DNA of 64,000 nt from Thalassobius sp. I31.1 (GTDB taxonomy: Bacteria; Pseudomonadota; Alphaproteobacteria; Rhodobacterales; Rhodobacteraceae). Positions within the stretch are counted from its first letter, which is position 1. The number at the start of each line of letters is the position of its first letter. The stretch is taken from positions 1-64,000 of the forward strand of contig NZ_PWAA01000004.1 in assembly GCF_003031585.1 (NCBI RefSeq). Direction: 5' to 3'. Shown here piece after piece: positions 4,375-27,681 of the stretch. The position numbers and the translations under genes are program-made. The notes beneath the pieces are model-generated. The model saw only the letters and a list, made by a program, of their open reading frames with translations. It did not search any database and was not told where the DNA came from.

Positions 4375-4644
4375 ATGAATAGCACAGCACATAACCTTTG
4401 CGCACTGATTGAAGCGCTGGCATCGGCAACGAACCGATCAGTTTCAACTGTGTCTCGATTAACTACAGGGAGCGGCGACACATATCGCCGCCTCCAGTCA
4501 ACTGATGTGGATGGAAAGCCCGCTCACCGGATTTCTACTGAGCGTGCCGAACGCGCCTTTCTCTGGTTGTCTGCGAAATGGCCGGAAGACCTCGAATGGC
4601 CATCTGACATTCCGCGCCCGGCTGTTTCCGGGGAGGCCGCGTGA
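4375..4644 (+). CDS. Ner/Cro-like early DNA-binding protein
   Basis: An 89-residue protein divergent from the repressor. The N-terminal half reads as a helix-turn-helix (segment IEALASATNRSVSTVSRLTT). The C-terminal half has aromatic residues in a WLSAKWPEDLEWP stretch. The ATG at 4375 was chosen because it follows the operator, whereas the longer frame would start inside it. By position it corresponds to Mu ner, the early negative regulator. Its stop overlaps the next start. Confidence 0.65.
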   Translation: MNSTAHNLCALIEALASATNRSVSTVSRLTTGSGDTYRRLQSTDVDGKPAHRISTERAERAFLWLSAKWPEDLEWPSDIPRPAVSGEAA

Positions 4645-5027: not shown

Positions 5028-5061
5028 GCCATCAAAGAAACGCGTGACACAGGAAGACAGT

Positions 5062-5919
5062 ATGACCGGGATTTCAGAACCTAAGATCCAGAAACTGGAA
5101 ATCGACAGAATTGAAGCGACAGAGCGCCTGCGCCCGGTGTCTGAAGCCGGGGTGGAAAGCCTGATTGCCTCCATCAATGAGCTGGGCGTGATCAAAGACG
5201 CGATCCATGTGCGCAAGAAAGGCCGGGGCGACAAAGAGGTGTTGGTTCTGATGGCGGGCGCGCACCGCCTTGAGGCCGCCAAACGTCTGGGCTGGGAGAA
5301 GATCCCGGCGCGGATCTGGGCTGATGTAAATGACAACTGGGCGCAGATCATGGAGATTGATGACAATCTGGCAGGCGCGGATCTGAGCGCGCTTGAGTTG
5401 TCCGTGTTTCTGGCAGAGCGGAAGCGGGTTTATGAACGCATTTATCCTGATGCGAAACACGGTGCCCACGGCGGGCGTGGTGGGAAACGGAATGAAAAGG
5501 ACATAATGTCCTTTTCAAAAAGTGTGGCTGAAAAGCGAGAGATGTCTACCAAGCACATCAGCCGCTTTGTCGCCATCGGCAATGCCCTCTCCCCTCATGA
5601 TATCGCTCAGCTTACTTCGTCTGAACATCCCATCAAAATGAAAGACCTGATGGCTCTGGCAAAGATCTCGGCCCCGATTGTGCGGGCGGATGTTGTCGGC
5701 AAACTGGCATCCGGCGCAGTTAGATCCGTGGCCGATGCTTTGGCTGATCTGGAACCCGGCGAGAGCAAGCCCGCACCCGATCCGATTGATGAAGCCTATC
5801 AGAAGCTTCTGACCCTCTGGAAGCGTTCTCCGATGCCCGCAAAGCGCCGCTTTGTGGATGACCTCGAAACCGAACTGGCATCGGTTATGAACGCCAAACC
5901 GCAAATCAAGGCGGTGTGA
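5062..5919 (+). CDS. ParB/RepB/Spo0J-family nuclease-domain protein
   Basis: A 285-residue protein. An N-terminal ParB/sulfiredoxin-like domain (~residues 8-100) carries the ParB signature region around LMAGAHRLEAAKRLGW, followed by a helical HTH-like middle (VAEKREMSTKHISRF) and an acidic C-terminus. The ATG at 5062 follows AGGAAG at good spacing; the GTG at 5044 has none. It sits directly before the transposase in the early operon, with a TGA overlapping the next start region. ParB-like proteins occur in this slot in some alphaproteobacterial Mu-like phages. Whether it binds DNA, CTP or the transposase is not shown. Confidence 0.8.
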   Translation: MTGISEPKIQKLEIDRIEATERLRPVSEAGVESLIASINELGVIKDAIHVRKKGRGDKEVLVLMAGAHRLEAAKRLGWEKIPARIWADVNDNWAQIMEIDDNLAGADLSALELSVFLAERKRVYERIYPDAKHGAHGGRGGKRNEKDIMSFSKSVAEKREMSTKHISRFVAIGNALSPHDIAQLTSSEHPIKMKDLMALAKISAPIVRADVVGKLASGAVRSVADALADLEPGESKPAPDPIDEAYQKLLTLWKRSPMPAKRRFVDDLETELASVMNAKPQIKAV

Positions 5920-5921
5920 TT

Positions 5922-8141: not shown

Positions 8142-8885
8142 ATGACACAGACACAGCAACTTTACAACACTGTCGCCCCGCTCAGAAATGTCAGCGCCCT
8201 TGTGGTGTTGATTGAGCGGGTGAACGCACGGCCTGTCGGACTGCCGGGCATGGCGGCGTTTTACGGCCCCAGCGGTTATGGCAAAACCACGGCTGCGGTT
8301 TATGCGGCCAATAAGTTTAACGCATATCAGGTGCAGCTCAAAAGCTGCTGGACCGGCAAGAAACTCTGCCAGGCACTGCTGCAGGAAATGGGTCTGGAGC
8401 CGCGCAAGACCATTGCCGATATGGTGGATCAGATTGCCCAGGAGATGAGCTTTACCAATCGCCCGCTGCTGATTGATGAGGCGGATTTTCTGGTGGCGCG
8501 CAAGATGATTGAGATCGTGCGCGACATCTATGAGAGCTCTGATGTGCCGGTCATTCTGATCGGGGAAGAACTGCTGCCCCAAAAGCTGCAGAAATGGGAG
8601 CGCGTGCATGGTCGCATGATGGACTGGGTGGGCGCGCAGCCTGCCTGTCTCAGCGATATTGATCACCTGGCGAAGATCTATTGCCCCGATGTGGCACTTG
8701 ATCCGGCCTTCAAAGAACATCTGCTGCGTTCCTCGCATCATTCGATCCGCCGGGTCTGCGTGAACCTCGCCAAAGTGGCCGAGGAAGCAGTGGTGAGCGG
8801 CTTTGACAGCATTGATCTGAAGAGCTGGGGCAAGCGTGAGTTTTTCGCCTGCGCAGCCCCCGCACCCCGGAGGGAACTGGCATGA
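8142..8885 (+). CDS. Mu B-like AAA+ ATPase, target-DNA activator
   Basis: A 247-residue AAA ATPase that would form filaments on target DNA and deliver it to the transposase. Walker A is GPSGYGKT at 42-49 and Walker B is LLIDEAD at 109-115. It is shorter than Mu B (312) and lacks an obvious N-terminal HTH. GAGGAAGAG precedes the ATG. The 69-bp gap after the transposase holds a GC-rich inverted repeat (CCGCCG...CGGCGG, 8079-8110), which may weaken readthrough. It overlaps the next gene by 4 bp. Confidence 0.92.
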   Translation: MTQTQQLYNTVAPLRNVSALVVLIERVNARPVGLPGMAAFYGPSGYGKTTAAVYAANKFNAYQVQLKSCWTGKKLCQALLQEMGLEPRKTIADMVDQIAQEMSFTNRPLLIDEADFLVARKMIEIVRDIYESSDVPVILIGEELLPQKLQKWERVHGRMMDWVGAQPACLSDIDHLAKIYCPDVALDPAFKEHLLRSSHHSIRRVCVNLAKVAEEAVVSGFDSIDLKSWGKREFFACAAPAPRRELA

Positions 8886-11917: not shown

Positions 11918-12793
11918 ATGCAGTTTTCTGATCACAGACTGGCTGACCATCCTTTCCGCCCCGCGCGCTGGACCGGCGGCACCATCACCCCGGAAATCAT
12001 TGTTCTGCATGATACGGCCAGCCGCCTTGATAAGGGCTCTGCTGCGGCGTTTCTGTTGGACAATGAGGCAAAAGTTTCTGTGCATTTTGTGCTGGAGATT
12101 GACGGCACAATCACTCAGCAGGTGCCAATCAATCGCCGCGCCAATCATGCCGGGCGCTCCCATTATCACGGGCGCGATCACTGCAACGGGTTCTCCATCG
12201 GCATTGAGATCGTCAATCCGGGCCGCATGACACGCACTGGTGATAAAGCACGCGCCTGGTATGGCGAGAGCTTTGATATTGGAGAATATGGCATTGAGGA
12301 AATCACCACGCCGGAACATGGCGCGGGCCTCTGGATGCCTTATGCGGAAGCACAGATCAAAGCGCTTCTGGAACTTCTGCAGGCACTGTCCCTGGCCTGC
12401 GATACACTGACAGATATTGTGCCGCATTGGTATATCTCACCCGGTCGCAAAGTGGATACAAACCCGCTCTTTCCACTGGAGCATATCAAGGCCCTTGTTC
12501 TGGGCCGCGATAATCCGGCGGAGGCACAGGCGGAAGAGATCTCTGACGCGGTGCCAGATGCCAATGAGCTCATTCAGGTGGATGCGCCGGGCGACACATT
12601 AAACCTGCGCCGCTGGCCGTCCTTTAATCCCAATGTCATCGCACAGATCCCGGATCAGGCCATCCTGCCGGTTCTGCGCAAAGGCACGTTTGCCGGGCGG
12701 GACTGGCTGCAGGTTCTCTATGGCGGCCAGAGCGGCTGGGTTGTTGCCCGCTACGCCGCCCCCATCACCTTTGACACAGGACATCAGACATGA
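11918..12793 (+). CDS. N-acetylmuramoyl-L-alanine amidase with SH3 domain (endolysin)
   Basis: A 291-residue muralytic enzyme that cleaves the amide between MurNAc and the stem peptide. An Amidase_2 domain fills residues ~10-190 (VLHDTA, NHAGRSHY and PHWYISPGRK hold the zinc-binding His and catalytic region). A bacterial SH3 domain at ~215-285 (TLNLRRWPSFN...GWVVARY) probably binds the wall. No signal peptide is present, so it needs the holin encoded next, whose start overlaps this stop. Confidence 0.9.
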   Translation: MQFSDHRLADHPFRPARWTGGTITPEIIVLHDTASRLDKGSAAAFLLDNEAKVSVHFVLEIDGTITQQVPINRRANHAGRSHYHGRDHCNGFSIGIEIVNPGRMTRTGDKARAWYGESFDIGEYGIEEITTPEHGAGLWMPYAEAQIKALLELLQALSLACDTLTDIVPHWYISPGRKVDTNPLFPLEHIKALVLGRDNPAEAQAEEISDAVPDANELIQVDAPGDTLNLRRWPSFNPNVIAQIPDQAILPVLRKGTFAGRDWLQVLYGGQSGWVVARYAAPITFDTGHQT

Positions 12794-13959: not shown

Positions 13960-14496
13960 ATGCCTCCGGTTCGCAAAATTGATCTGATCCCCCGTGAGCT
14001 GGGCCTCTGGCTTCAGGAAGAGCTGAAGGAGCGCGGCTTCTCCGGCTATGAGGATCTGACGGAAAGCCTGAACTTCCGCCTGGCAGATGCCGGGCTTGAG
14101 ATGAAGATCGGCAAATCCGCCGTCCACAGCTTCGGGCAGGAGTTCCAGGAGTTCGCCCGTCTGCAGGAGCAGGCTCAGGATGAGATCCGTGGTTTTCTTG
14201 AGAAAGCCAGCCTGAAAGATGAGGTAGATGTGACCTCTGCGCTCTTCCAGCAGCTCACCACCATTCAGTGGCGTCTGCAGATGATGATGGCGCGCGAAAG
14301 CGAGCTGCCGGATCCACGCGGCATGAAAGATCTGACTTCGGCTCTGAACAACCTGATCCGCTCAACATCCCTGCGCGACAGCATTCTGAAGGCCGAACGC
14401 ACGGCCCAGGCGGAGAAACTGGAGAGCGCGGTGGAAGCCGGTGACATTGAAGCAGAAGCCGCCCGCAAGGCCCGTGAAATCATGGGGTTTGAATGA
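13960..14496 (+). CDS. DUF3486 protein, small-terminase-like (Mu gp27)
   Basis: A 178-residue helical protein of the DUF3486 family (Mu gp27), thought to act as small terminase subunit for DNA packaging. Visible hallmarks are the N-terminal KIDLIPRELGLWLQEELKERG, an HTH-like KSAVHSFGQEF, and a long charged C-terminal helix. It lies two genes before the large terminase, as in Mu-like genomes. Confidence 0.85.
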   Translation: MPPVRKIDLIPRELGLWLQEELKERGFSGYEDLTESLNFRLADAGLEMKIGKSAVHSFGQEFQEFARLQEQAQDEIRGFLEKASLKDEVDVTSALFQQLTTIQWRLQMMMARESELPDPRGMKDLTSALNNLIRSTSLRDSILKAERTAQAEKLESAVEAGDIEAEAARKAREIMGFE

Positions 14497-14690
14497 TGCC
14501 ATCCGCTGACATGGATATCGGCATGCTGGTGCTTTACGCGAATGGCATGTGGAAGCAGGCCGGGATCTGCCTGCGCGTGTCAGCCTGGCTGTTTGGGCGT
14601 CATGAGGTCTTTGTGCATCTCGGCAGGCGCTTCCGGATCTCATGGTTCCGGAGCGTGCCTTATCTCCTGTCAGTTGCGGAGGTTGCGTGA
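14493..14690 (+). CDS. Small unknown phage protein
   Basis: A 65-residue protein wedged between the DUF3486 and terminase genes with 4-bp overlaps on both sides, which supports it being real. It is Trp/Arg-rich with a hydrophobic C-terminus. No family recognised. Confidence 0.5.
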   Translation: MMPSADMDIGMLVLYANGMWKQAGICLRVSAWLFGRHEVFVHLGRRFRISWFRSVPYLLSVAEVA

Positions 14691-16132
14691 CTGATCCCGT
14701 CATCAAATTCCTGCCCTATCAGAAAGCCTGGCTGCAGGATGACAGCCGGTTCAAGATCGGCATGTTCACCCGGCGCGGCGGCAAGACCTTCGGGGCCAGC
14801 GGTGAGATCGTGCAGGATTGCATTGATGCGGAGATTGAGAACCGCAAGACCCGCTGGACCATTCTCTCGCGCTCTGAAGCCACAGCAAAAGAGGCAATTG
14901 AAGACGCGTTAAAACCCATGGTGAAGGCCTATTACGCGGCCTATTCCACATTGGCGCGCAAGGGTCGCCCGGAGTTCTCGGTAGAGGATTTCCACGTGCC
15001 TGCCCATCAGCGTGAGGTGATCCAGAACGGCGATCCACAGATGATTGATGTGGCCGAGGCAACCTATAAAGCGCAGGAGGTGCGCTTTCCCGGCGGCTCC
15101 CGCGTGACAGCCATCTCAGCCAGCCCGGATGCGGCGCGTGGCTTTGGCGGCAATATGCTGTTTGACGAATTTGCCTTCCATCAGGACAGCCGCCGGATCT
15201 GGGGCTCTGCCTTTCCTGTGGCGGCCCGGGGCGGCCATAAGATCCGGGTGATCAGCACGCCAAACGGCAAAGGCAACAAGTTCTATGAGCTGATGACCAC
15301 CAAAGAAAATGGCTGGTCCAGACATCATATTGATATCTATGAGGCGGTGCGCCAGGGGCTTGATGTTGACATTGATGAGCTGCGTGCGGGCATGGCCGAT
15401 GAGGATGCCTGGGCGCAGGAGTTTGAGCTTAAATGGCTGGATGCCGCGTCCTCCTGGCTGCCTTATGATCTGATCTCTTCCTGCGAGCATCCGCTGGCCG
15501 GTCACCCTGCGCTTTATCGTGGCGGGCCGTGTTTTGTCGGTGTGGATATCGCCGCGCGCAATGACCTCTTTGTCATCTGGGTGCTGGAGCTGGTCGGGGA
15601 TCAGCTTGTGACCCGGGAGGTGATCGCCCGCCGCCGCATTAAATTTGCCGAACAGGACCGGCTGCTGGCCGATGTCTTCCGCCGCTATCATGTGGTGCGT
15701 TGCGCCATGGATCAGACCGGCATGGGCGAAAAGCCGGTGGAAGACGCGAAGGCTAGTCACGGTGAAGAGCGTGTGGATGGGGTGCTCTTCAGTGCCAGCA
15801 GCAAGCTTGATCTTGCCACCGGACTGAAGCAGAGCCTGCAGGACCGTCAGACGCTGATCCCGGCGGGCGATCCCAACATGCGTGCGGATCTGCATGCAAT
15901 CAAATCCATGACCGGCCCGACCGGCATTCGCCGCCTTGTGGCCGATGGTGACAGCGATGGTCACGCGGACCGCTTCTGGGCGCTCTCGCTCGCGGTGGGT
16001 GCATCCGAGACAACCTATCAGCCCTATGTTTACCGCCCGGTGACCGCTTCAGCCCTCTCGCGTCTGCAGGAAGATCAGATGCGCCTGCTGAAGCTGACCG
16101 CCGGATTTAAAACCCGTAAAGGAGTATGGTGA
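14687..16132 (+). CDS. Terminase large subunit (Mu gp28-like)
   Basis: A 481-residue packaging motor. The ATPase part has a Walker-A-like TRRGGKT at 28-34 and Walker B MLFDE at 157-161. The C-terminal RNase-H-like nuclease half includes VGVDIAARND, CAMDQTGMGEKP and the late DGDSDGHADRFWA acidic patch. I chose the GTG at 14687, which overlaps the previous stop; the upstream in-frame ATG lies inside the previous gene. It looks intact although head genes are missing. Confidence 0.9.
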   Translation: MTDPVIKFLPYQKAWLQDDSRFKIGMFTRRGGKTFGASGEIVQDCIDAEIENRKTRWTILSRSEATAKEAIEDALKPMVKAYYAAYSTLARKGRPEFSVEDFHVPAHQREVIQNGDPQMIDVAEATYKAQEVRFPGGSRVTAISASPDAARGFGGNMLFDEFAFHQDSRRIWGSAFPVAARGGHKIRVISTPNGKGNKFYELMTTKENGWSRHHIDIYEAVRQGLDVDIDELRAGMADEDAWAQEFELKWLDAASSWLPYDLISSCEHPLAGHPALYRGGPCFVGVDIAARNDLFVIWVLELVGDQLVTREVIARRRIKFAEQDRLLADVFRRYHVVRCAMDQTGMGEKPVEDAKASHGEERVDGVLFSASSKLDLATGLKQSLQDRQTLIPAGDPNMRADLHAIKSMTGPTGIRRLVADGDSDGHADRFWALSLAVGASETTYQPYVYRPVTASALSRLQEDQMRLLKLTAGFKTRKGVW

Positions 16133-17682
16133 TGGCCGTTCTTGATCAATATGGCCGCGCGATGAACAGCACGCAGCACAAGCGACGTCTGACAGAGCGT
16201 GTGGCTGAGCCCGGCCTGACTTCCATCCGCAGCGCCTGGGCTCCTTCAGTGACCTCTGGTCTCACGCCCATGCGGCTGGCCGCAATTCTGCAATCAGCAG
16301 CAGAGGGCAATCTGCATGATTATCTGGTGCTGGCGGAAGAGATGGAGGAACGTGATCCCCATTATGCGTCTGTGCTGGGGGTGCGCAAACGCACGGTTTC
16401 CGGTGTAGTGCCCACGGTGACACCGGCCTCTGATGATGCCCGTGATGTGAAGATCGCAGATGATGTGCGTGAGAATATCGCGCATCACGACGGGTTTGCG
16501 GATCTTGTGGAAGATATGCTCGATGCGCTTGGCAAGGGCTTCTCACAGATTGAGCTCCTCTGGGGGCGCAGCAAAAAGACCTGGTGGATTGAGGAGTTCA
16601 TCTGGCGTGATCCGCGTTTCTTCATGTTTGACCGGGAGACCGGGCGGGAGGTGCGCCTGATTGATCATGAGGATCTGACCAATGGTGTCCCGCTTGAGCC
16701 GAACAAATGGATCAGCCATCGAGCCCGCCTGAAATCAGGTCTCGCCGGTCGCGGTGGTCTGGCGCGGCTCGTGTGTTTTGGCTGGATGTGCAAGAGCTAC
16801 ACCATGAAGGACTGGATTGCCTTCATTGAGACTTATGGTCTGCCTCTGCGCCTTGGCCGCTATGGTTCCAGCGCCACGCCGGAAGATGTGGAGATCCTCT
16901 TCAGTGCGGTTGCCAATATCGGCACCGATGCGGCGGCAGTTCTGCCGGATAATATGCGCATTGATTTTGAGCAGATTGCCAACGGGGCGGGCAATGATAT
17001 CTTTGAGAACCTCGCCCGCTGGTCGGATGAGCAGACATCAAAGGCCGTGTTGGGTCAGACCATGACCTCTGACAATGGGTCATCCCAGGCGCAGGCCAAT
17101 GTGCACAATGAGGTGCGCCATGATGTGGCGGCTTCAGATGCGCGCTCGATCTCAGGCACGCTCAATCGTGATCTTGTGAAACCCTATGTGGATCTGATCT
17201 ACGGCGAACAGATCCGCTACCCAAAGCTGAAAATCGTGGTGGAAGAGGCCGAAGACGTGGACATGATCCTGCAGAATGCCAATCGGCTGATCAGCCGGGG
17301 TCTGCGGGTGAAACAGTCTGAGCTGCGCAGCAAACTGGGCTTCTCTGAACCTGATCCGGATGATGAGGTGGTGGGTGGTCCGCCCCCGAAAAAACCAACG
17401 CCGGAGAGCGAAGAGCAGCATCGCAACCAGGCGGAAGCCGGAGATCTGGACAGCGAAGCCGTGCTGGCGGAACTTGAGGGGGATCTGGCTTCAAGTTGGG
17501 AAGAGGTTCTGGAGGGGGTGCTTGATCCGGTGATTGCCCTGCTGCAGAGCGCCACGGATTATGAGGAAGCCCAGCAGATGCTGGCGGAGGCCTTCCCGCT
17601 GATGGACAACCGCGCCCTGATTGAAAGCCTTGTGAAGAGCAATTTAAAGGCCCGGGCATTGGGAGATCATCCGGATGGCTGA
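16132..17682 (+). CDS. Portal protein (DUF935, Mu gp29)
   Basis: A 516-residue DUF935 portal protein, the dodecameric channel at the head vertex. Family features include the conserved MDWIAFIETYGLPLRLGRYG-like segment (here KDWIAFIETYGLPLRLG), a GLGQTMTSDNGSSQAQA-like stretch (VLGQTMTSDNGSSQAQA) and an acidic C-terminus. GGAG gives a 7-nt spacing to the ATG at 16132, so that start is preferred over the ATG at 16126. It overlaps the F remnant by 8 bp. Confidence 0.92.
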   Translation: MAVLDQYGRAMNSTQHKRRLTERVAEPGLTSIRSAWAPSVTSGLTPMRLAAILQSAAEGNLHDYLVLAEEMEERDPHYASVLGVRKRTVSGVVPTVTPASDDARDVKIADDVRENIAHHDGFADLVEDMLDALGKGFSQIELLWGRSKKTWWIEEFIWRDPRFFMFDRETGREVRLIDHEDLTNGVPLEPNKWISHRARLKSGLAGRGGLARLVCFGWMCKSYTMKDWIAFIETYGLPLRLGRYGSSATPEDVEILFSAVANIGTDAAAVLPDNMRIDFEQIANGAGNDIFENLARWSDEQTSKAVLGQTMTSDNGSSQAQANVHNEVRHDVAASDARSISGTLNRDLVKPYVDLIYGEQIRYPKLKIVVEEAEDVDMILQNANRLISRGLRVKQSELRSKLGFSEPDPDDEVVGGPPPKKPTPESEEQHRNQAEAGDLDSEAVLAELEGDLASSWEEVLEGVLDPVIALLQSATDYEEAQQMLAEAFPLMDNRALIESLVKSNLKARALGDHPDG

Positions 17683-17947
17683 TCCATCTGACAAGCCCGG
17701 TTACAGCTTTAATCCCGGCCCGCCGCCGGAGGTCTCCCGGTTTTTCCGCAATAAAAACCTGCTGCCTGCCTTCAGCTATCATGATGTGGAACCGCAGGAG
17801 CATGCGGTGGGGTTTACGGTTGCGAAAGCCATGAACCTTGATGTGCTCCAGAGCATTCAGGGCGCGCTGCAGCAGGCGATGGATGCAGGCCATGGGTCAG
17901 CAGCTCATCAATCAGGGCGCGCTTCTGGGCTTCAACTGCTGGCTTGA
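17675..17947 (+). pseudogene. Minor head protein F (Mu gp30-like), truncated by deletion
   Basis: The first ~70 codons read as the start of a Mu F-type head morphogenesis protein (KPGYSFNPGPPPEVSRFF, then HAVGFTVAKAMNLDVLQSI). Family members are several hundred residues long. Here the match stops at QQAMDAG (about 17888) and the frame runs 19 unrelated codons to a stop at 17947. The next bases in another frame encode the end of a tail sheath protein. This is the left side of a large internal deletion. Confidence 0.85.
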
Positions 17948-18104
17948 TCCGGAGCTCAACACAGAGACCACGCTGAAGGCAGGCAAGCTCTATCTGGACT
18001 TTGATTTTGAGCCGCCCGCGCCACTGGAACATCTGATCTTCCGGGCCCATCGCAATGGCTCTTACTATGATGAGCTGATCTCAGACGTCACCTCTGCAGC
18101 GTAA
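17883..18104 (+). pseudogene. Tail sheath protein L, C-terminal remnant
   Basis: About 73 codons in the frame opening at 17883 match the conserved end of Mu L-type tail sheath proteins: AMGQQLINQGALLGFNCWLD, then the LDFDFEPPAPLEHLIFR segment. Family members are about 500 residues, so more than 85 percent is missing. The frame differs from that of the F remnant, so no fusion protein is made. It is the right side of the deletion. Confidence 0.85.
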
Positions 18105-18108
18105 TCAC

Positions 18109-18130: not shown

Positions 18131-18159
18131 GATCCCCGAACATAAGAAGGAACAGCGAG

Positions 18160-18657
18160 ATGTCATATCCGCGTAAAATCCGTAATTTCTCCTCCTTTAT
18201 TGATGGCGTCAGCTATGCTGGCCGCGCGCTTGAGGGCAAACTGCCGGAGCTGAAACTGCAACTGGCCAGCCACCGGGGCGGTGGCATGGATGGCCCTGTG
18301 ACTCAGGACATGGGCACGGAAGCCATGAAGGCGGAACTGACCCTGGCGGACTGGCCGCCGGAGCTGATCACTCTGTTTGGCACCCGCCAGCGTATGACCC
18401 TGCGCCCCGCCGCAAAGGGAGAGCATGATTTCTCCGCCGACAGCTATGTCGCAACCCTCGGCGGACTCTGGACTGTGGTGAACTTTTCAGACCTCAAACC
18501 CGGCTCTGATGTGCCCCTGAAGCTCACGCTGGAAGTCGATTATTTCCGCATGCAGCACAATGGGGCTGAGCTCTTTGAGATCGACATCGAGGCGGGCAAA
18601 CGCGTGATCGGCGGTGTCGATCAGCTTGGTGAACTCCGCAAGGCCATGGGGCTCTGA
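18160..18657 (+). CDS. Major tail tube protein (P2 FII family)
   Basis: A 165-residue P2 FII-type contractile-tail tube protein, which would stack as hexamers to form the tail core. Start segment SYPRKIRNFSSFIDGVSYAG and the DVPLKLTLEVDYFRMQHNG end match the family, and length is normal. AGAAGGAACAGCG lies before the ATG. It is intact, but its sheath partner upstream is destroyed. Confidence 0.9.
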   Translation: MSYPRKIRNFSSFIDGVSYAGRALEGKLPELKLQLASHRGGGMDGPVTQDMGTEAMKAELTLADWPPELITLFGTRQRMTLRPAAKGEHDFSADSYVATLGGLWTVVNFSDLKPGSDVPLKLTLEVDYFRMQHNGAELFEIDIEAGKRVIGGVDQLGELRKAMGL

Positions 18658-18667
18658 TCCTCTCTCT

Positions 18668-18688: not shown

Positions 18689-18720
18689 TTTAAACGCACT
18701 TTCAAACGGGCTTTAATCCT

Positions 18721-19038
18721 ATGTCAAACATCTCAAAAATGAACACTGTCACCCTGAACGATCCTGTCACCGTGGATGGCAACCCGGTTTCAGAAATCAC
18801 TCTGCGCAAACCCACAAGCGGCGAGCTGCGTGGCCTGTCTCTGGTCGATATTCTGCGCATGGAAACCACGGCCATGCTCAACCTGTTGCCCCGCATCACA
18901 CAGCCGCCGCTCAATGCGGCACAGCTTGGCGCACTTGACCCGGCAGATTTCACAGATCTCGCGGGGAAAACCGTGCTTTTTTTCGCGAAGAAACAGCAAC
19001 TGGAGGGGCAGCTTCTGGAGATGCAGGCGACGGCTTAA
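18721..19038 (+). CDS. Tail assembly chaperone E (P2 gpE / TAC type)
   Basis: A 105-residue tail assembly protein that would coat the tape measure during tail building. It shows the family pattern TLRKPTSGELRGLSL near the N-terminus. Codon 86 begins CTT TTT TTC (18976-18984), a T TTT TTC slippery heptamer that allows -1 slippage into the frame of the next small ORF, as in P2 E/E'. Without slippage the product ends at 19038. Confidence 0.85.
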   Translation: MSNISKMNTVTLNDPVTVDGNPVSEITLRKPTSGELRGLSLVDILRMETTAMLNLLPRITQPPLNAAQLGALDPADFTDLAGKTVLFFAKKQQLEGQLLEMQATA

Positions 19039-19201: not shown

Positions 19202-21994
19202 ATGGCCGCCGGTGATCTGAACATTGCAATGGTCCTGAAACTTGTGGATCAGGTGTCCGGGCCCGCGCGTGGTGCCGTCAATGCGCTGCGCGGCATCGGG
19301 GCCGCCGCTGAGAACACGGGTCAGGCCGGGGTTGCCTGGGCCAATCAGCAACTTGAAGCCAATCAGATGCGCCGCCAGGCTTTGCAGTCTGAAGCTCTGG
19401 GGATTGCCGCCACAGGCTATGCGCTCGTGCAGGCCCTGCGCCCGGCCATTGAATTTGAAAGCGCCATGGCCGGTGTGTCGAAAGTCGTGGATTTTGACAG
19501 CCCGGCAGGCTTGTCCAGAATGCAGGAAGAGATCCTTGCCCTGACCACCTCCGGCGCTCTTCCCATGGCGGCGGAAGGCATTGCAGAAATCATTGAGGCC
19601 GCCGGTCAGGCCGGTGTGGTGGATGCCGCGCTGCCCGATGCAGAAGAGCGCGAACAGCTCATAGCCTTTGCCCGGGATGCGGCGCAGATGGGTGTCGCCT
19701 TTGATATATCCGCCCAGATGTCCGGTGAAGCTATGGCCCAGTGGCGCAAAGCCATGGGTTTGAGCCAGGACCGGGCGCTCGCGCTTGGGGATGCAATCAA
19801 CCATCTCTCCAATAATATGAATGCCACGGCCCCGGGGCTGGTAGACATTATCCGCCGTCAGGGCGCTGTGGCGCAGACCGCCGGGCTTGCGGAAACTGAG
19901 ATTGCCGCGCTTTCTGCTGCATTCCTCTCCGGTGGGGCCAGCCCGGAGATCGCCGCGACCGGCCTGAAGAACTTCCTGGGTGCCCTGACCGATGGTGAAG
20001 CGATGACCAATCGACAACGTGGTGTCATGCAATCCCTTGGTCTTGATGCGGTTGAGATGTCACAGCGCATGCAGGTGGATGCGAAAGGCGCAATCATTGA
20101 GGTGATGGAAGCCCTGGCTGAACTGCCTGCTCATGCGCAGGGTGCAGCTCTGAGCCAGTTGTTTGGCGAGGAAAGCAAGGGCGCGATTGCACCGCTTCTG
20201 ACCAATGTGGATTTGCTGCGTGAGGCCTTTGCCCTGGTTGCAGATGAAAGCCAGTTCGCCGGTTCTATGCTGGAAGAATATGCCAAACAGTCTGAGACCA
20301 CGGCCAATGCTTTGATCCTGACAAAGAACTACGTCACCGGGCTTGCGATTGCGGCGGGCAGTATTCTGCTGCCAGAGCTCAATGAGCTGCTCGCAACTGT
20401 GCAGCCGGTGATCTCCATGGTGACGGCCTGGGCAGAAGCCCATCCGGAACTGATCTCTCTGATCGCAAAGCTTGTGGCTGGGGTGCTGGCCCTGAAGGTC
20501 GCCTCCATTGCCCTGCGCTGGGGGATCTTCTCGGCTCTCACGCCCATTCTGCAGATGGTACGCGCCGGATCCTGGCTTCTGATCCTTCTGCCCCGGCTCG
20601 GGGCCGGTCTGCTGGCCTTGCTCTCCCCTATGAAACTCATTCGCGGCGCACTGATTGCCCTGCGCTATGCCTTTATTGCCACGGGCATCGGGGCTTTGCT
20701 GGCCGGTGTCGCCATGGCAGGTGTCTGGATCTATAACAACTGGTCCGGCCTGAAGGTCTTTTTTGCCGGGTTCTGGGCCTCATTCCGGGAAGCACTTGGA
20801 CCGGCGGGGCCGATGCTGGACGGGATCATCGACAATGTCCGCGCGCTCTGGTCCTGGGTGACATCTCTGCTCGGGCCGCTGGATGCCAACGCTGCGACCT
20901 GGAATGCCTGGGGGCAATCTGCAGGCACGGCCATTGGCGGTGTGGTCGGGGCGGTTATGAGCTGGACCGGCGCATCAGGTGAGCTGATCACCACAATCGC
21001 GCAGCTCTATGGCGGGTTTCTGGCGCTGCGTCTGATCTGGAAACTGCCCCTCAGTCCCTTGCGTCTCGCGGGCAATGCGGTTGCCTGGATCGGGCGCGGC
21101 CCTCTGGTCTGGGCGCTGCGTGGGGTCCGGCTGCTTTCCGGAGCTTTCCTGCGCCTCGGGCTGGTTGCGCTGACCAACCCGATTGGCCTGGTGATTACCT
21201 CTGTCGCGGCCCTTGCTGTGGTGGTGTATCAGAACTGGGATAAGGTCGTCTCTTACTTCACAGAAAAGCTGGAAACTGTGCGTTCCGCTTTTGATGAAGG
21301 GCTCCTGAAGGGGGTTCTGACCACCCTGGCGGAGTTCAATGTGTTTGGCATGATGCTCGACGGAATGCAGGGCCTGCTTGCCTATGTGATGGAACTTATC
21401 GGGGTGCCTGATCAGATCGTGGCTGCCTTCGCTTCCTTCAGTCTCTGGGATACAGGCGTCAATCTGATGCAGTCGCTCTGGGACGGCATGGGCTCCATTG
21501 TTGAGAATATGACCGCTGCGCTCTCTGCAAAGATCGCCTCTCTGAAACCGCAATGGCTGACGGATCTGCAAAGCTGGGTCAGCGGTGATGATGAGGCTGG
21601 CGCGGAACCCGGCCGGGATCGCGGCGGGCCGGTGCGCGCAGGTGTGCCTTATCTGGTGGGGGAGCGTGACGCAGAGATCTTTGTGCCTGGTGTTTCCGGC
21701 TCCATTCTGCCCGCCCGCAGTCTGAAAGCCGCCATGGCGGCCACAGCACTTGCAGCCCCGGCGGCGGCAGCTCCGGCACAGGCGGAACTGATGCAGCGGG
21801 TGGATCAGCGCCCGGCGATCTCTGCGCCATCCTCTCCGCGCCAGATCATCCGCGAGGGCGATCAGATCAGCATTTCTGTTCAGGCGGCACCGGGCATGGA
21901 TGCCCAGGATATTGCCCGGGAGGTTGAGCGCCAGCTTACTCGCCGGGAAGATGCGCGCCGTGGTGAGCTGCATGACGGGGGGCTGTTTGAATGA
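19202..21994 (+). CDS. Tail tape measure protein (P2 gpT / TP901 type)
   Basis: A 930-residue tape measure that sets tail length. The N-terminal TP901 core domain lies at ~80-350 (FESAMAGVSKVVDFDSP, IIRRQGAVAQTAGL). Several hydrophobic stretches lie at ~390-700 and a Gln/Arg/Ala-rich C-terminus follows. At about 0.15 nm per residue it would specify a tail near 140 nm. It looks intact and overlaps the U gene by 4 bp. Confidence 0.92.
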   Translation: MAAGDLNIAMVLKLVDQVSGPARGAVNALRGIGAAAENTGQAGVAWANQQLEANQMRRQALQSEALGIAATGYALVQALRPAIEFESAMAGVSKVVDFDSPAGLSRMQEEILALTTSGALPMAAEGIAEIIEAAGQAGVVDAALPDAEEREQLIAFARDAAQMGVAFDISAQMSGEAMAQWRKAMGLSQDRALALGDAINHLSNNMNATAPGLVDIIRRQGAVAQTAGLAETEIAALSAAFLSGGASPEIAATGLKNFLGALTDGEAMTNRQRGVMQSLGLDAVEMSQRMQVDAKGAIIEVMEALAELPAHAQGAALSQLFGEESKGAIAPLLTNVDLLREAFALVADESQFAGSMLEEYAKQSETTANALILTKNYVTGLAIAAGSILLPELNELLATVQPVISMVTAWAEAHPELISLIAKLVAGVLALKVASIALRWGIFSALTPILQMVRAGSWLLILLPRLGAGLLALLSPMKLIRGALIALRYAFIATGIGALLAGVAMAGVWIYNNWSGLKVFFAGFWASFREALGPAGPMLDGIIDNVRALWSWVTSLLGPLDANAATWNAWGQSAGTAIGGVVGAVMSWTGASGELITTIAQLYGGFLALRLIWKLPLSPLRLAGNAVAWIGRGPLVWALRGVRLLSGAFLRLGLVALTNPIGLVITSVAALAVVVYQNWDKVVSYFTEKLETVRSAFDEGLLKGVLTTLAEFNVFGMMLDGMQGLLAYVMELIGVPDQIVAAFASFSLWDTGVNLMQSLWDGMGSIVENMTAALSAKIASLKPQWLTDLQSWVSGDDEAGAEPGRDRGGPVRAGVPYLVGERDAEIFVPGVSGSILPARSLKAAMAATALAAPAAAAPAQAELMQRVDQRPAISAPSSPRQIIREGDQISISVQAAPGMDAQDIAREVERQLTRREDARRGELHDGGLFE

Positions 21995-22416
21995 GCATTG
22001 GCATGGTCATGATTGCGCTCGGGACGTACCGCTTCGGGATGCGCAATGGTTCTTATCAGACATTTGCGCGCACAGCGGCGTATCGCTGGAGCAAGGTCAA
22101 CCGCCTGGGCCGTGCGCCCGCGCTGCAATATGCCGGGCCGGATGCGCAGGAGCTGATGATTGAGGGTGTGATTTACCCGCATTACAAAGGCGGGTTGCGT
22201 CAGGTCGATCTGATGCGGGCGCAGGCCGGGCTCGGGCGGCCCATGATGATGGTGGATGGTCTGGGCTGGGTCTGGAAACGCTGGGTGATCACCCGTGTGG
22301 AAGAGCGCAAAAGCGTGTTTCTGCCGGATGGGGCCCCGCGCAAAATTGAGTTCTCGCTCAGCCTGCAGACCTATGGATCTGATGGACAGCCTGCACTCCT
22401 CGGGGGGCTGTTATGA
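21991..22416 (+). CDS. Tail terminator-like protein U (P2 gpU family)
   Basis: A 141-residue P2 gpU homologue. It shows ALGTYRFGMRNGSYQTFART at the start and the conserved WKRWVITRVEERKSVF region before a beta-rich end (IEFSLSLQTYG). In P2, U is needed for tail completion. Overlaps both neighbours by 4 bp. Confidence 0.88.
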   Translation: MSIGMVMIALGTYRFGMRNGSYQTFARTAAYRWSKVNRLGRAPALQYAGPDAQELMIEGVIYPHYKGGLRQVDLMRAQAGLGRPMMMVDGLGWVWKRWVITRVEERKSVFLPDGAPRKIEFSLSLQTYGSDGQPALLGGLL

Positions 22417-22616: not shown

Positions 22617-22619
22617 TCC

Positions 22620-23594
22620 ATGCAGATTGATTATCAGATCCTTGAGGGCGGCAGCGATATTACAGCGCGATTTAAAGACCGTTTAACAGGGCTTTCAATC
22701 ACCGATGAAGCCGGGCTGAAATCCGACAGTGCTGAGATCTCCGTTGATAACCGGGATCAGCGCGTAGAGCTGCCGCCGGTCGGGGCAAAACTTGAGATTG
22801 CGCTGGGGTTTAAGGAAACCGGCCTGACCGCCATGGGTCATTATATCGTGGATGATCTTTCCGGTGAGATCATGCCCGAGGTGATGACGATCAGCGCGAA
22901 AGCGGCTGACATGCTGGGTTCCATTCGTGCCCCGAAAACCCGCGCCTGGGAGGCTGTCACTCTGGGCGATATCGTGAACACCATCGCCGCCGATCACAAT
23001 CTGAAACCCGCCGTCAGTGAGGATCTGCAGCCCGCTTTCTTTGGCTATCTGGCCCAGACTTCTGAAAGCGATCTCAATCTGCTGACACGGCTCGCCCGCG
23101 ACCTCAACGCCACTGTGAAACCCGCCGCCGGTCATCTGGTTTTTGTCCGCCGGGGCGCTGGAAAAACCGTTTCCGGCGAGGATATCCTGCCCCATGTCAT
23201 CCACCGCAGCCAGATCTCGCGCGGGTCATGGAAACTCACCGGGCGGGGCAAATATGGCAAGGTCACAGCCGAATGGTCAGAGACCGGCACCGCATCCCTG
23301 CACCGGGTCAGCGCCGGGGAGAAATCCCCTGAGCTGAAGCTGCGCCATCCCTACGCCACAGAGGCCGAGGCCCGCCGCGCTGCAGAGGCAGCCCTTCGCG
23401 CCAGCCAGTTCGCCAGTGGCAGCATCAGCCTGCAGCTCGGCGGGTTCTTTGGTGACATCGCCGCTGAGAGCCCCGTGGATCTGCAGGGCATCCTGCCAGA
23501 GCTCACCGGGATCTGGATCGTCACACGCGTGACGCACCGGCTGGGTGAGACACTGACCACGAGCATTGATGCAAAGAGAGGGGAGGAGAGTTGA
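22620..23594 (+). CDS. Late control / hub protein D (P2 gpD)
   Basis: A 324-residue gpD-type baseplate hub protein (the half equivalent to gp27 of T4). It starts MQIDYQILEGGSDITARFKD and contains the conserved YLAQTSESDLNLLTRLARDL segment. It is the last recognisable phage gene. In complete relatives the spike V, W, J, I and tail fibre genes follow, and none is present here. Confidence 0.9.
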   Translation: MQIDYQILEGGSDITARFKDRLTGLSITDEAGLKSDSAEISVDNRDQRVELPPVGAKLEIALGFKETGLTAMGHYIVDDLSGEIMPEVMTISAKAADMLGSIRAPKTRAWEAVTLGDIVNTIAADHNLKPAVSEDLQPAFFGYLAQTSESDLNLLTRLARDLNATVKPAAGHLVFVRRGAGKTVSGEDILPHVIHRSQISRGSWKLTGRGKYGKVTAEWSETGTASLHRVSAGEKSPELKLRHPYATEAEARRAAEAALRASQFASGSISLQLGGFFGDIAAESPVDLQGILPELTGIWIVTRVTHRLGETLTTSIDAKRGEES

Positions 23595-23849
23595 GAGCTC
23601 TGGCTAGTGGGCAAAATGGGCATCCTGAGATGCGAAGGCCAAAATGCGCTGAAAGCGGACCTTTGCAAAGCTGGTTGGATTTTTTGATGCGGCGTCAGCT
23701 GTCAGCCCAAAGCAGACGTGGCGCTTCGATAAATTGGGCGCCAGAGATCTCTTCACTGCAGATCAGTAGATGCAGAAAGCGGACACCCATAAACTGCGGA
23801 TGAGATATCAGCCTTGACCTATTCGGAATTTTGGAACAGAGATCATCAT
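23595..23849. other. Junction region between prophage and cobalamin riboswitch
   Basis: About 255 bp with no gene. It contains AAAGCGGAC motifs at 23652-23660 and 23776-23784, AAAGCAGAC at about 23709, and a CCTTTGCAAAG palindrome at about 23659-23669. Related motifs recur after the permease gene (27358-27495). No phage right-end sites, TG/CA terminus or target duplication could be recognised. The prophage's right end has probably been deleted here. Confidence 0.5.
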
Positions 23850-24037
23850 AGATGGTTTCCGGAATACAAATGTGATTCCGGGATGAAATGGGAATACGGT
23901 CAGGTGTAGCCATAAGGCGCCAATTCCGTAACTGCCCCCGCAACTGTAGGCGGCGAGCGACCCCGGTATGACCACTGAACGCAAAGCGTTTGGGAAGGTC
24001 CGGGAAAGCATCGACCCGCAAGTCAGGAGACCTGCCA
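23850..24037 (+). promoter_or_regulatory. Cobalamin (B12) riboswitch
   Basis: An AdoCbl-type class I cobalamin riboswitch. Signature blocks in order are GGTTTCC near 23854, GGTCAGGTGTAGCC near 23898, the B12-box-type core AACTGCCCCCGCAACTGTAG near 23931-23950 with the following GGCGGCGAGCGACC, then CCACTG, GGGAAGG, and the closing GACCCGCAAGTCAGGAGACC just before 24036. Downstream, CATCATAAT (24036-24044) can pair with ATTATGATG (24079-24087) as a possible expression platform. It would shut off the uptake operon when cobalamin is plentiful. Confidence 0.95.
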
Positions 24038-24151
24038 TCATAATGAAACTTCAACCCGGGCGGGGTGTCCGGAAGGTGATTATGATGATACGGAAAATTC
24101 CGTCTGAAAATCTGTCTGTCCTTTGCCCCGCGCATTCGCGGAGGGCGAGAT

Positions 24152-24556
24152 ATGGGCATTCCAAAACACAGAATTACGATCTGCACATCCTGCAAAAACA
24201 AAGGCGAAACCTGTCGTCCCGGCTATGAACTGATTGAACGGCTGCGTGCTGCGATTGAAGCAGCCGGAGATTCCGTGTCAGAAGATTTCGAGATTTCCGG
24301 CGTCGCCTGTATGGCGGGCTGTGATCATCCCTGCACCGTCGCCTATCACGGCACCCGCAAGGCAACTTATCTGTTTGGTGACATTGAACCCGGCCAGGAC
24401 ATTGAAGATCTGGTGGATTTCGCGCAGCAATACGCGCTTTTGCATGACGGCTGGTGTTCCTCTGTCGACCGCCCCGGGAAGCTGCGTAAAAACACGCTGG
24501 TCCGCGTCCCAGCCATGATGATGGCGCTTGAAGAATCCGAAAGGCTTGTCTCATGA
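24152..24556 (+). CDS. DUF1636 family metal-binding protein
   Basis: A 134-residue DUF1636 protein. Cysteines lie in CTSCKNKGETC near the N-terminus and GVACMAGCDHPC in the middle, suggesting an Fe-S (thioredoxin-fold ferredoxin-like) or other metal site. The family is often found with cobalamin or cobalt genes in Proteobacteria. As first gene under the riboswitch it probably supports B12 uptake, trafficking or processing. GGAGGGCGAG precedes the ATG. It overlaps the ATPase gene by 4 bp. Confidence 0.85.
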   Translation: MGIPKHRITICTSCKNKGETCRPGYELIERLRAAIEAAGDSVSEDFEISGVACMAGCDHPCTVAYHGTRKATYLFGDIEPGQDIEDLVDFAQQYALLHDGWCSSVDRPGKLRKNTLVRVPAMMMALEESERLVS

Positions 24557-25335
24557 AACCTGCCGGATTGATCGCAGAAAACATCAGTTGGGCACCACGT
24601 AAAAACCTGCCCAAACTGCTGCATCCTGTAAGTTTTGAAGTAAAACCTGGCCAGGTTCTCGGGGTTGTCGGGCCAAATGGTGCCGGCAAGTCCACACTGT
24701 TGCGTATGATTTACCGGTATCAGGCCCCAACCAGCGGGCGTGTGTTGGTGGGCGGTGAAGATATCTGGGCGGGACCACCACGCGCCGCGGCACGCAAAGT
24801 TGCAGCCGTCCTGCAGGAACAGCCAGGTGCTTTTGGCCTGTCCGTGCGTGAAGTCGTCACCCTGGGACGCACCCCACACCGCCTGGGGTATTCCACCCCG
24901 GGCGCTGCTGATGCAGAGATTGTGAACAACGCGCTGGATCGGATGGAATTGCGTCACATTGAATTCCGGGACCTGGGCAATCTGTCTGGTGGGGAACGTC
25001 AGCGTGTCATGGTCGCCCGCGCACTGGCACAGCAACCGCAGCTGCTTGTGATGGATGAACCAACCAACCATCTGGATATCCGGCATCAGTTGGAAATCCT
25101 GTCTCTCATCCGCTCACTGGGGCTGACCATCGTTGTTTCCCTGCATGATCTCAATATGGCAGCAGAAGTCTGCGATGCGGTTCTCATGCTCCAGGACGGG
25201 CATTGTCGCGGTTTTGGCGCCCCCGAAGACGTCCTGAGTGAAGCGCAGGTGTCGCAAACTTTTCGGGTGAAGGCCTGGCGCGAGGTCCTCAGCCGCAGCA
25301 ACACTGAACATCTTTCTTTCCACCTTCCTGATTAA
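24553..25335 (+). CDS. ABC transporter ATP-binding protein, BtuD-like
   Basis: A 260-residue ATPase of the FepC/BtuD type. Walker A is GPNGAGKST, the signature is LSGGERQRVMVARAL, Walker B is LLVMDEPTNHLD, and the H-loop is VVSLHDLNMAAEV. Under a cobalamin riboswitch and next to binding-protein and permease genes, it is best read as the motor of a vitamin B12 importer. Siderophore import would be the alternative without the riboswitch. Confidence 0.93.
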   Translation: MKPAGLIAENISWAPRKNLPKLLHPVSFEVKPGQVLGVVGPNGAGKSTLLRMIYRYQAPTSGRVLVGGEDIWAGPPRAAARKVAAVLQEQPGAFGLSVREVVTLGRTPHRLGYSTPGAADAEIVNNALDRMELRHIEFRDLGNLSGGERQRVMVARALAQQPQLLVMDEPTNHLDIRHQLEILSLIRSLGLTIVVSLHDLNMAAEVCDAVLMLQDGHCRGFGAPEDVLSEAQVSQTFRVKAWREVLSRSNTEHLSFHLPD

Positions 25336-25346
25336 AGGACAAACCC

Positions 25347-26294
25347 ATGAAACTGAATTCTACCTCTCTTGCGACGGGCCTGATCGCCACTGTAATGGCC
25401 ACCTCTGCCATGGCCGAAATCACCGTTCAAAGTTGTGACCGCGAAGTCACCTTTGACACGCCCCCCACAGCGGCAATCTCAAATGATGTGAACCTTACTG
25501 AAATGATGCTGGTTCTGGGCCTCGCAGATCGTATGGTTGGCTACACCGGCATTTCCGGCTGGAACAAACTGGACGCTGAAATGCGCGAAGGCGTGGCTGA
25601 GCTGCCCGAACTGTCTGAACGTTACCCATCCAAAGAAGTCCTGATCGGTGCAGATGCAGATTTTTTCTTTGCGGGCTGGAACTACGGCATGAAAGTGGGC
25701 GGCGAAGTCACCCCGGAGACCCTCGCACCCTTTGGCATGAAGGTTTATGAGCTGACCGAAAGCTGCATCCATGTCGGCAAAGAGCAAGACGTCACCATGG
25801 ATCTGATGTATAATGACCTGCTGAACCTCGGCAAAATCTTCGGCGTGGAAGAACGCGCGGAAGAACTGGTTGCGGGCTATCAGGCGGAACTGGCAGAGAT
25901 CACTGCAGGTGTTGATGCGAATGCAGAATCCGTGCGTGCTTTTGTCTTTGATTCCGGCGCGGACACACCCTTCACCGCCGGTCACTATGCGATCCCAACC
26001 GCGATGATAGAAGCCGCCGGTGGCGTCAACGTCATGGACAGCTTCCGCAAAAGCTGGGGCACCGTCAGCTGGGAAGAAGTCGTCGCCCAGGACCCGGAAA
26101 TCGTGGTCATCATCAACTACGGTGAACTCACCGCAGAAGACCGTATGAACATCATGCGTGACAACCCGGCGCTGGCAAACATCCAGGCCGTCAAGAACGA
26201 CCGTTTCGTGGTCCTGGAATATGTCGAGGCCACTCCTGGTCCACGCAACATTGCCGCGATCCGTCGCCTGGCCGACGCCTTTCACGGTGAATAA
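25347..26294 (+). CDS. Periplasmic substrate-binding protein, BtuF-like
   Basis: A 315-residue binding protein with a signal peptide ending near AMA (about residue 23), then a two-lobe class III (FecB/BtuF) fold. Features include TAAISNDVNLTEMMLVLGLADRMVG at the start of lobe one (as shorter segments TEMMLVLGLADRMVG), the long helix around residue 170-195, and NPALANIQAVKNDRFVV near the end. It would capture cobalamin (or a corrinoid) and hand it to the permease. AAAGGACAA precedes the ATG. Confidence 0.9.
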   Translation: MKLNSTSLATGLIATVMATSAMAEITVQSCDREVTFDTPPTAAISNDVNLTEMMLVLGLADRMVGYTGISGWNKLDAEMREGVAELPELSERYPSKEVLIGADADFFFAGWNYGMKVGGEVTPETLAPFGMKVYELTESCIHVGKEQDVTMDLMYNDLLNLGKIFGVEERAEELVAGYQAELAEITAGVDANAESVRAFVFDSGADTPFTAGHYAIPTAMIEAAGGVNVMDSFRKSWGTVSWEEVVAQDPEIVVIINYGELTAEDRMNIMRDNPALANIQAVKNDRFVVLEYVEATPGPRNIAAIRRLADAFHGE

Positions 26295-26297
26295 ACC

Positions 26298-27341
26298 ATG
26301 ACTGAGACAGCAGTGGACATCTCCCGCAATCGTAAATTCCGTCTTACTATGTTTTGCGGGGTGATCCTGCTGCTGTTCTCTGTTTCCGTTGCCATCAGTG
26401 TGGGGGCCGTTTCCGTGCCCCTGCACGTGGTCTGGGGCGTGTTGATCAACAAAATCGCCCCGGATACGATTGAACAGACCTGGTCTGTCGGGCGTCAGTC
26501 AATCGTCTGTGAAATCCGCTTTCCGCGCGCATTGCTTGCCTCATTTGTTGGGGCAGGGTTGGCCATTGTGGGGGCAAGTCTGCAGGCTGTCACCCGCAAC
26601 CCGCTGGCAGATCCGCATCTGTTGGGGATTTCCTCCGGCGGGGCATTTGGTGCGATCCTGGCGCTGCTGCACACCGGTATGTTCCTGGGCCTGCTGACAG
26701 TGCCGCTGTTTGCCTTTCTCGGGGCGCTTGGCGCAACCCTTCTTGTGCTGGCCGTGTCGCAGTTTGCGTCTGCCACCAGTGCGGATCGCCTGATCCTTGC
26801 GGGTGTCGCTGTGTCATTCATCGTTATGTCACTGGCCAATATTCTGATTTTTCTGGGCGATCCGCGTGCAACGCATACTGTTGTCTTCTGGATGCTTGGT
26901 GGTCTGGGCCTCGCGCAATGGAGCCAGCTTCTTTACCCGCTTACAATTCTTCTGCTTTGCGGCGGCTGGCTCTGGCTCAATGCGGGCAATCTCAACGCGA
27001 TGACCATTGGTGATGAAACGGCAACTACACTGGGTATTCCTGTTGCGCGCTTTCGCCTGATGATCTTTGTCACGGGCGCCCTGATCACCGGTGTCATGGT
27101 CGCCTTTTCCGGGATTATCGGCTTTGTTGGGCTGATGGTGCCGCATATCGTGCGCATGCTGGTGGGCGGCGACTACTTGCGCGTCCTCCCTGCTTCAGCA
27201 TTGTTTGGCGCGATCTACCTGCTTTGGTCCGATATCATTGCCCGCACGATTATGGCGCCTGAAGACATGCCAATCGGTATTGTTACCGGCCTGATTGGTG
27301 GTGCGTTCTTTGTCTGGTTGTTACGGCGGCGAGACACTTGA
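26298..27341 (+). CDS. ABC transporter permease, BtuC/FecCD family
   Basis: A 347-residue FecCD-family permease with about ten membrane helices. Hallmarks are RFPRALLASFVGAGLAIVGA, NPLADPHLLGISSGGAFGA, and the coupling region near GFVGLMVPHIVRMLVGGDY. It starts 4 bp after the binding-protein stop and ends the operon. Together with the BtuD- and BtuF-like proteins it makes a complete B12 importer. Confidence 0.93.
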   Translation: MTETAVDISRNRKFRLTMFCGVILLLFSVSVAISVGAVSVPLHVVWGVLINKIAPDTIEQTWSVGRQSIVCEIRFPRALLASFVGAGLAIVGASLQAVTRNPLADPHLLGISSGGAFGAILALLHTGMFLGLLTVPLFAFLGALGATLLVLAVSQFASATSADRLILAGVAVSFIVMSLANILIFLGDPRATHTVVFWMLGGLGLAQWSQLLYPLTILLLCGGWLWLNAGNLNAMTIGDETATTLGIPVARFRLMIFVTGALITGVMVAFSGIIGFVGLMVPHIVRMLVGGDYLRVLPASALFGAIYLLWSDIIARTIMAPEDMPIGIVTGLIGGAFFVWLLRRRDT

Positions 27342-27681
27342 CGGTTGCGATGCCGCTAAAGCGGACAGTCGCATACAGACTGAGGCGGAGCATTCGGTTG
27401 ACTTTGCAAAGGCCGCTATCTGCCCATCGCAGACATGCACAGACATCCGACTGAGATAAGGGGCGGTGTCCGCTTTGACCGGCAAAGCAGACATTAGGGC
27501 TGCTGCAACTTTAGTTGTCACAAACTGAAAATATCCGTGGCGAGCTACATTGGTTGCAGTTGATTCCACCTCAGGAAACGCCAAAACTGGCCCAAAACCA
27601 GTTTATAACTGTTTATAACTTTGCATGATAAACAGACCACGAAGCGGAAGCGCTTTAAGTTATTGATATTTAAGGAAAAAG
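27342..27681. repeat. Intergenic repeat-bearing region after the B12 operon
   Basis: About 340 bp without a gene. AAAGCGGACA (27358-27367) and its inverse TGTCCGCTTT (27467-27476) form a 10-bp inverted pair ~100 bp apart, with AAAGCAGACATT at 27484-27495 and ACTTTGCAAAGG near 27401. The same motif family occurs between the prophage and the riboswitch, partly inverted, so the B12 operon is bracketed by related sequences. They may belong to a small degenerate mobile repeat. Confidence 0.5.

Follow-up and report, generated by a model that had tools for sequence, protein, structure and literature searches.

The Mu-like prophage at positions 653 to 27549 of the window (the whole stretch of 64,000 nucleotides that was analysed) combines Mu-type head and packaging genes with a P2-type tail, and it has in all likelihood lost about 12.1 kb through one internal, illegitimate deletion at a microhomology of 2-7 bp. 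The probability of this reading is placed at roughly 0.87. Such an event would have joined codon 71-72 of an F-like minor head gene, out of frame, to the last 73 codons of a tail sheath gene, by way of microhomology or slippage. The product would be a lysogen that is incapable of forming particles and retains its repressor, transposition and cargo genes (Table 1).

Table 1. Features of the defective prophage (window coordinates) and genes found between the corresponding breakpoints in the Halocynthiibacter namhaensis prophage (G002)
Feature	Position	Strand	Basis or remark
Left target-site duplication TTGGT	648..652		identical 5 bp at 27550-27554
Left prophage end, TGT...TGACAC...CAGTAAC	653..681	+	similar motif in G101, G102, G103, G105
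HTH + ImmA/IrrE-type protease, RmrA-like antitoxin	1111..2322	-	PADLOC RmrA E=3.3e-198; PF06114, PF01381
RmrT-like partner	2353..3108	-	PADLOC RmrT E=1.5e-93
S24 repressor-like gene	3645..4481	-	PF00717
ParB-domain early gene	5044..5919	+	PF02195
Mu-type transposase A, full length	5916..8072	+	PF02914, PF09039, PF09299
AAA ATPase, transposition protein B position	8142..8885	+	PF13401
Amidase (lysis)	11918..12793	+	PF01510
Terminase small subunit	13960..14496	+	phrog_426
Terminase large subunit	14642..16132	+	PF03237, PF17289
Mu-type portal, full length	16126..17682	+	PF06074 E=2.4e-95
5' stub, F-like minor head gene	17675..17890	+	72 of ~380 codons; phrog_220
Deletion join	17882..17893		12.1 kb absent relative to G002
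3' stub, sheath gene	17883..18104	+	last 73 codons; PF17482, phrog_23; frame differs from F
Tail tube, FII type	18160..18657	+	PF04985; phrog_55, named 'head closure' by PHROGs
Tail assembly chaperone, E type	18721..19038	+	PF10109
Tape measure, 930 aa, same as G002	19202..21994	+	PF10145
gpU-like tail protein	21991..22416	+	PF06995
gpD-like baseplate hub	22620..23594	+	PF05954, phrog_52
Cobalamin riboswitch	23838..24053	+	RF00174, 126 bits
DUF1636 gene + ABC ATPase, binding protein, FecCD permease	24152..27341	+	between gene D and right end
Right prophage end, CTGAAAA...GTGGCGAGCTACA	27525..27549	+	same motif in relatives
Right target-site duplication TTGGT	27550..27554		matches 648..652
F, remainder	G002, between breakpoints		PF04233
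Protease	G002, between breakpoints		PF10123
Major capsid protein	G002, between breakpoints		PF10124, 384 bits
Head-tail adaptor	G002, between breakpoints		phrog_195
Further small head or connector genes	G002, between breakpoints		
Baseplate wedge subunit	G002, between breakpoints		phrog_43
Baseplate_J	G002, between breakpoints		PF04865
Tail protein	G002, between breakpoints		phrog_48
Tail fibre	G002, between breakpoints		phrog_523 and others
Further tail-fibre-related protein	G002, between breakpoints		phrog_2837, phrog_1807
Most of sheath	G002, between breakpoints		PF04984, PF17482

The principal evidence is collinearity with a Mu-like prophage of Halocynthiibacter namhaensis (genome G002, contig C15), which served as the reference and belongs to the same genus as the window's genome. 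Among the best 80 of 128 loci, the closest relatives of the window's portal are on two H. namhaensis contigs (84%). An alignment to a Mu-like relative had been proposed as a check in the first-pass annotation, and in this comparison blastn recovered two collinear blocks, with window positions 14686-17893 corresponding to 4715-7920 of contig C15 and positions 17884-23555 to 20014-25704. The jump between the blocks indicates that 12.1 kb are absent at the window's join. Contigs C14 and C15 of G002 overlap at their ends by 21.9 kb at 100%, and they are therefore probably one prophage with an unmerged assembly overlap. The reference prophage may itself not be fully intact, because its portal gene is frameshifted near residue 489 (L118 7621), either a defect or a sequencing error. 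A Hint-domain gene also lies in its head module, on the opposite strand directly after F (L118 8849-9880), and is among the genes between the breakpoints.

The two open reading frames that meet at the join each match only part of their family. For the frame from 17675 to 17947, similarity to the minor head protein family (phrog_220) is restricted to residues 15-73, in agreement with the earlier observation that the family match ends near position 17888. The F-like stub is at 82% to the H. namhaensis F, and past 17890 its frame continues out of phase into sheath DNA until a stop at 17947. In the frame from 17838 to 18104, the match to the tail sheath begins at residue 16-17 (the C-terminal domain, PF17482) and covers positions 407-476 of 496 of phrog_23, which bears out the description of a second frame holding only the C-terminal part of a sheath protein. 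This stub is at 88% to the C-terminus of the G002 sheath, and the ATG at 17883 is a possible start for a remnant of 73 residues from which most of the protein is absent. Because the F and sheath stubs lie in different frames, no F-sheath chimeric protein is made, and the proposal that head gene F had been fused to sheath gene L does not hold at the protein level. The sheath had also been described as Mu-type; it belongs instead to a P2-order tail module.

The extent of the microhomology can be estimated from relatives of both genes. Of 34 sheath rows from relatives, some of which repeat a genome, 32 have valine just before Gln (GTG in G002), so the GA at the join is unlikely to be of sheath origin. 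For F, 69 rows from relatives, again with some genomes repeated, were compared at the position where the window has the Ala of Asp-Ala-Gly; 40 have Glu there and three have Ala, and F may therefore have shared only TG. With an F like that of G002 the microhomology would comprise TG; with an F already encoding Asp-Ala-Gly it could reach about TGCAGGC at most. The 10-bp sequence GATGCAGGCC, which had been put forward as common to both parents, was not confirmed and overstates the overlap.

Judged from its sequence, the join is genuine and reads as a deletion scar. It sits 17.9 kb inside a contig of 102.8 kb, and the surrounding 601 bases have no second match in the window's genome (32 of 32 candidates scored). 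Both observations argue against an assembly artefact, in which the contig would join places that are not adjacent, for example where several related prophages are present. Related prophage pieces do occur in the same genome: contigs C9 and C18 are at 93% and 95%, respectively, to gene D, contig C10 is at 97% to TerL, and contigs C9 and C5 start with the same 77 bases. Moreover, the junction 28-mer was found in a single IMG/VR record, and the three stretches of it that were compared, of 13,964-17,469 bases, show no difference from the window. Because of this identity the record is taken as the same genome and assembly and not as independent support, so that the assembly is the only source of the join. 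However, the missing 12.1 kb was not found elsewhere in the window's genome at similar identity (40 of 49 candidates scored), where it gave only four short matches (77-478 bases, 73-75%). Nor could an overlap or k-mer assembler create a join out of a shared stretch as short as 2-7 bp. An artefact is regarded as very unlikely.

The spacing of the flanking genes in relatives is consistent with a loss in the window. The portal start and the tube start are 2,034 bp apart here, while among the 14 of 17 genomes in which this distance was measurable on one contig it amounts to 11.2-15.8 kb for 13 and to 29.8 kb for G110. The other three comprise G112, which has no tube match, G113, whose tube lies on a different contig from the portal, and G001, whose tube match is weak (25% identical); the tube was matched in 16 of the 17. 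The short arrangement is absent from the other two genomes of the genus, so that among the three only the window's genome (G000) has it. On viral contigs, a portal match was obtained at 98 of 101 loci, with the sheath or tube visible at only 11, and the remaining 87 are uninformative on distance. Within the informative 11, the short arrangement occurs only at L145, L168 and L245; all three belong to a single IMG/VR record, taken as the window's own. One further viral contig (L226) has a portal at 52% and, in the 8.8 kb downstream, no capsid match. An origin of the head and tail halves from different phages was suggested by missing sheath and tube matches, which were lacking in the six closest loci and present in 2 of the best 80 of 128 (L030 and L037), with a weak chaperone match only in L053. 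This suggestion was rejected, as most 10-kb locus flanks stop before the sheath.

A recombination between two prophages, one supplying the head and packaging half and the other the tail half, has also been considered in place of a deletion within one. In its favor, DNA identity to G002 is 81% in the left block by the join and 76% in the right block, and related D genes are present on C9 and C18. However, both halves match one prophage in the same order. Given this and a join at non-homologous genes, a deletion needs fewer steps, and recombination appears quite unlikely. The two events leave an identical product.

Under the preferred reading, a deletion within one prophage, the losses extend beyond those first listed. 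The remainder of F, the protease, the capsid, the connectors and most of the sheath are missing, as the first-pass annotation had stated, but its list is incomplete. The tail genes follow the P2 order, with baseplate and fibres before the sheath, so the deletion removed the baseplate and fibre genes too. This order, which we take to be baseplate, fibre, sheath, tube, E, T, U, X and D, is found in G002, and what remains of it in the window runs from the sheath stub to D. Overall, the proposal of an internal deletion stands on the collinearity with one prophage of the same genus and on the absence of the segment elsewhere, while the fusion, the microhomology and the list of losses had to be revised.

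The element is a defective derivative of the Mu-like prophages and not an intact member. It has a MuA-family DDE transposase with an adjacent AAA ATPase, and matched ends with a 5-bp duplication. Of the Mu-type head genes, the portal is complete, F is a stub of 72 codons, and the protease and capsid are absent at the locus. Particle-essential genes have thus been lost, as in cryptic prophages, with the capsid and baseplate genes lying within the 12.1 kb. Nor does the locus resemble a tailocin, since the sheath is a stub of 73 codons and the baseplate wedge genes are absent at the locus. Another reading is that the element has been reduced by adaptation to a satellite, a tailocin or a gene-transfer particle able to function with no head of its own. 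In its favor, the genes for the terminase, portal, tube, tape measure, hub and transposition are open and full length, and both ends are present. However, having lost the capsid, the fibres, the baseplate wedges and most of the sheath, the element would not be expected to yield a complete particle or even a tail without a head. Additionally, no Mu-type capsid (PF10124) that could belong to a resident helper was matched in the window's genome by a model that matched only one of 14 control genomes, and the arrangement is confined to the window's own record among the informative viral-contig loci and missing from the two other genomes of the genus. Such a reduction is considered exceedingly improbable.

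The limits of the prophage are defined by terminal motifs and a target-site duplication. Besides the relatives in Table 1, the left-end motif is found in G001, C10 and C18 (C-numbers given without a genome are contigs of the window's genome), and the right-end motif is common to G101, G102, G103, G105, G002, C9, C18 and C5. A search for ends in eight relatives gave a convincing pair with a 5-bp duplication in four (G101, G102, G103 and G105) and none in G104, G106, G108 and G114. These four have TGT...CAG on the left, CTGAAAA...GCTACA or near variants on the right, and their own identical 5-bp flanks. In G001, a sister species, the site is uninterrupted, and the match to the window runs through the left flank and TTGGT and on into the right flank for another 30 bases; 32 of 35 bases match rightward from the start of TTGGT, followed by a Mu-like left end of G001's own. 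The prophage is 26,897 bp long, and the 26.9 kb present together with the 12.1 kb missing make 39.0 kb, in or close to the range of 34-39 kb spanned by the four relatives whose two ends were located (from coordinates, about 39.1 kb in G105, 37.5 in G101, 36.4 in G103 and 34.2 in G102). A prophage cut off to the right of gene D, where the riboswitch operon follows, was rejected because the operon turned out to be followed by the right-end motif and TTGGT. In three species of the genus, Mu-like elements have inserted into one and the same intergenic region, close to a tRNA gene, at three different points that lie within about 80 bp (window 609-653 / 27550-27584, L119 13584 and L258 7866), with the opposite orientation in G002.

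Compared with the H. namhaensis prophage, the genes for the transposase, ATPase, terminases, portal, tube, tape measure, U and D have their full length or almost all of it, with the transposase at 81% to G002 over residues 1-718 and the ATPase at 89% to the H. namhaensis locus L017. Nonsynonymous and synonymous changes were counted on the window and G002 branches with G101 as the outgroup. The early genes have equal ratios on the two branches (30:141 and 34:161, respectively). The pooled structural genes showed no significant relaxation, with 68:229 on the window branch and 55:277 on the G002 branch (p=0.055), or 64:222 and 55:271 without the F stub (p=0.10). The pooled counts exclude the sheath stub, the small gene at 22414 and the genes at 11918 and 12790, the last two of which have no outgroup match. 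The tube gene has 8:8 against 2:16 (p=0.02, uncorrected and chosen after the table was seen). In view of the lack of significant relaxation, either the deletion is probably recent or the test is too weak. The prophage can probably no longer form particles, and transposition may still work.

With the ends at 653 and 27549 and the flanking TTGGT, both the RosmerTA-like pair and the riboswitch uptake operon lie inside the prophage. In its left part, an ImmA-domain RmrA-like gene stands beside an RmrT-like gene on the same strand, and positions 1111-3108 are predicted to encode a RosmerTA-like toxin-antitoxin pair with a putative role in defence. The RosmerTA phage-defence pairs described in PMC10440598 likewise place an ImmA-type protease antitoxin beside an RmrT-type partner, whereas the pair here is assigned by profile and is located at the left end of a prophage. 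The DUF1636/ABC operon probably mediates corrinoid or metal uptake. Its relatives are in G001 (91% DNA), where the copy lies about 3.6 kb from the Mu-like left end of that genome (the contig ends), and in G002 (71%). No second close copy was found in the window's genome, in which other permeases reach at most 39% over long stretches. As the riboswitch-controlled operon is now between phage ends, it may be mobile, and the host may retain the prophage partly for this cargo and the RosmerTA-like pair. The stretch from gene D to the right end resembles a variable cargo slot (window 23595-27500, L278 870-4950, L279 8430-12137 and L119 10750-13560), which contains RTX-repeat proteins in C9 and C18, a weak hydrolase-like gene in G002 and the uptake operon in the window.

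Other remnants of the genome and genus have likewise retained a left end next to an internal deletion. C18 carries a unit of about 4.3 kb made up of the left end, a gene D fragment, RTX and the right end (L279 8345-12656, minus strand), with the left end running straight into the middle of gene D, and in C10 the left end is joined to the middle of TerL (L296 78-591, minus strand). Both breaks fall at the identical left-end position, where GGA leads into TATC. In contig C23 of G001, the left end is followed by a protease fragment. The flanks of the C18 unit are CTGAA and CCGGC, with no duplication, so no mini-element is shown to have moved as such.

Particle-defective prophages are common, and Bobay et al. 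reportedly dealt with defective prophages in 2014. Laboratory mini-Mu derivatives have lost internal DNA and kept their ends. The window element has the same internal loss with its ends kept; unlike them, it is natural and retains the transposase and many late genes. The decay of cryptic, or 'grounded', prophages has been reviewed (PMC6379469) and modelled (PMC7744054), and there too particle genes are deleted with transposase or cargo kept. In contrast, the element here is a Mu-like transposable phage whose two ends and target duplication are present and whose transposase gene is open. Mu-like elements combined with a myovirus-type tail were already known, as here, from the alphaproteobacterial phage vB_CibM-P1 of Citromicrobium; according to PMC5488378, this phage is inducible and not a deletion derivative. 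The window prophage is not named in any of the titles and abstract openings listed for literature on Mu-like/P2-tail and transposable phages, Halocynthiibacter, RcapMu, RmrA/RmrT, vB_CibM-P1 and defective prophages, or on Mu-like prophages with cobalamin/BtuF. Likewise, Halocynthiibacter is absent from the main text of a survey of Rhodobacteraceae prophages (PMC8224337).

In conclusion, the deletion itself is ordinary prophage decay, and the locus provides a clear example of a transposable phage that has become particle-defective while its transposase, ends and passenger genes are still open. A broader and rather doubtful suggestion is that the Mu-like phages of the genus repeatedly lose their insides and keep their terminal sequences and right-end cargo, giving rise to natural, non-autonomous mini-Mu elements. 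If this were true, such elements would carry genes useful to the host, such as those for RTX-repeat proteins and the corrinoid or metal uptake operon, and the element in the window would represent an earlier step on that path.
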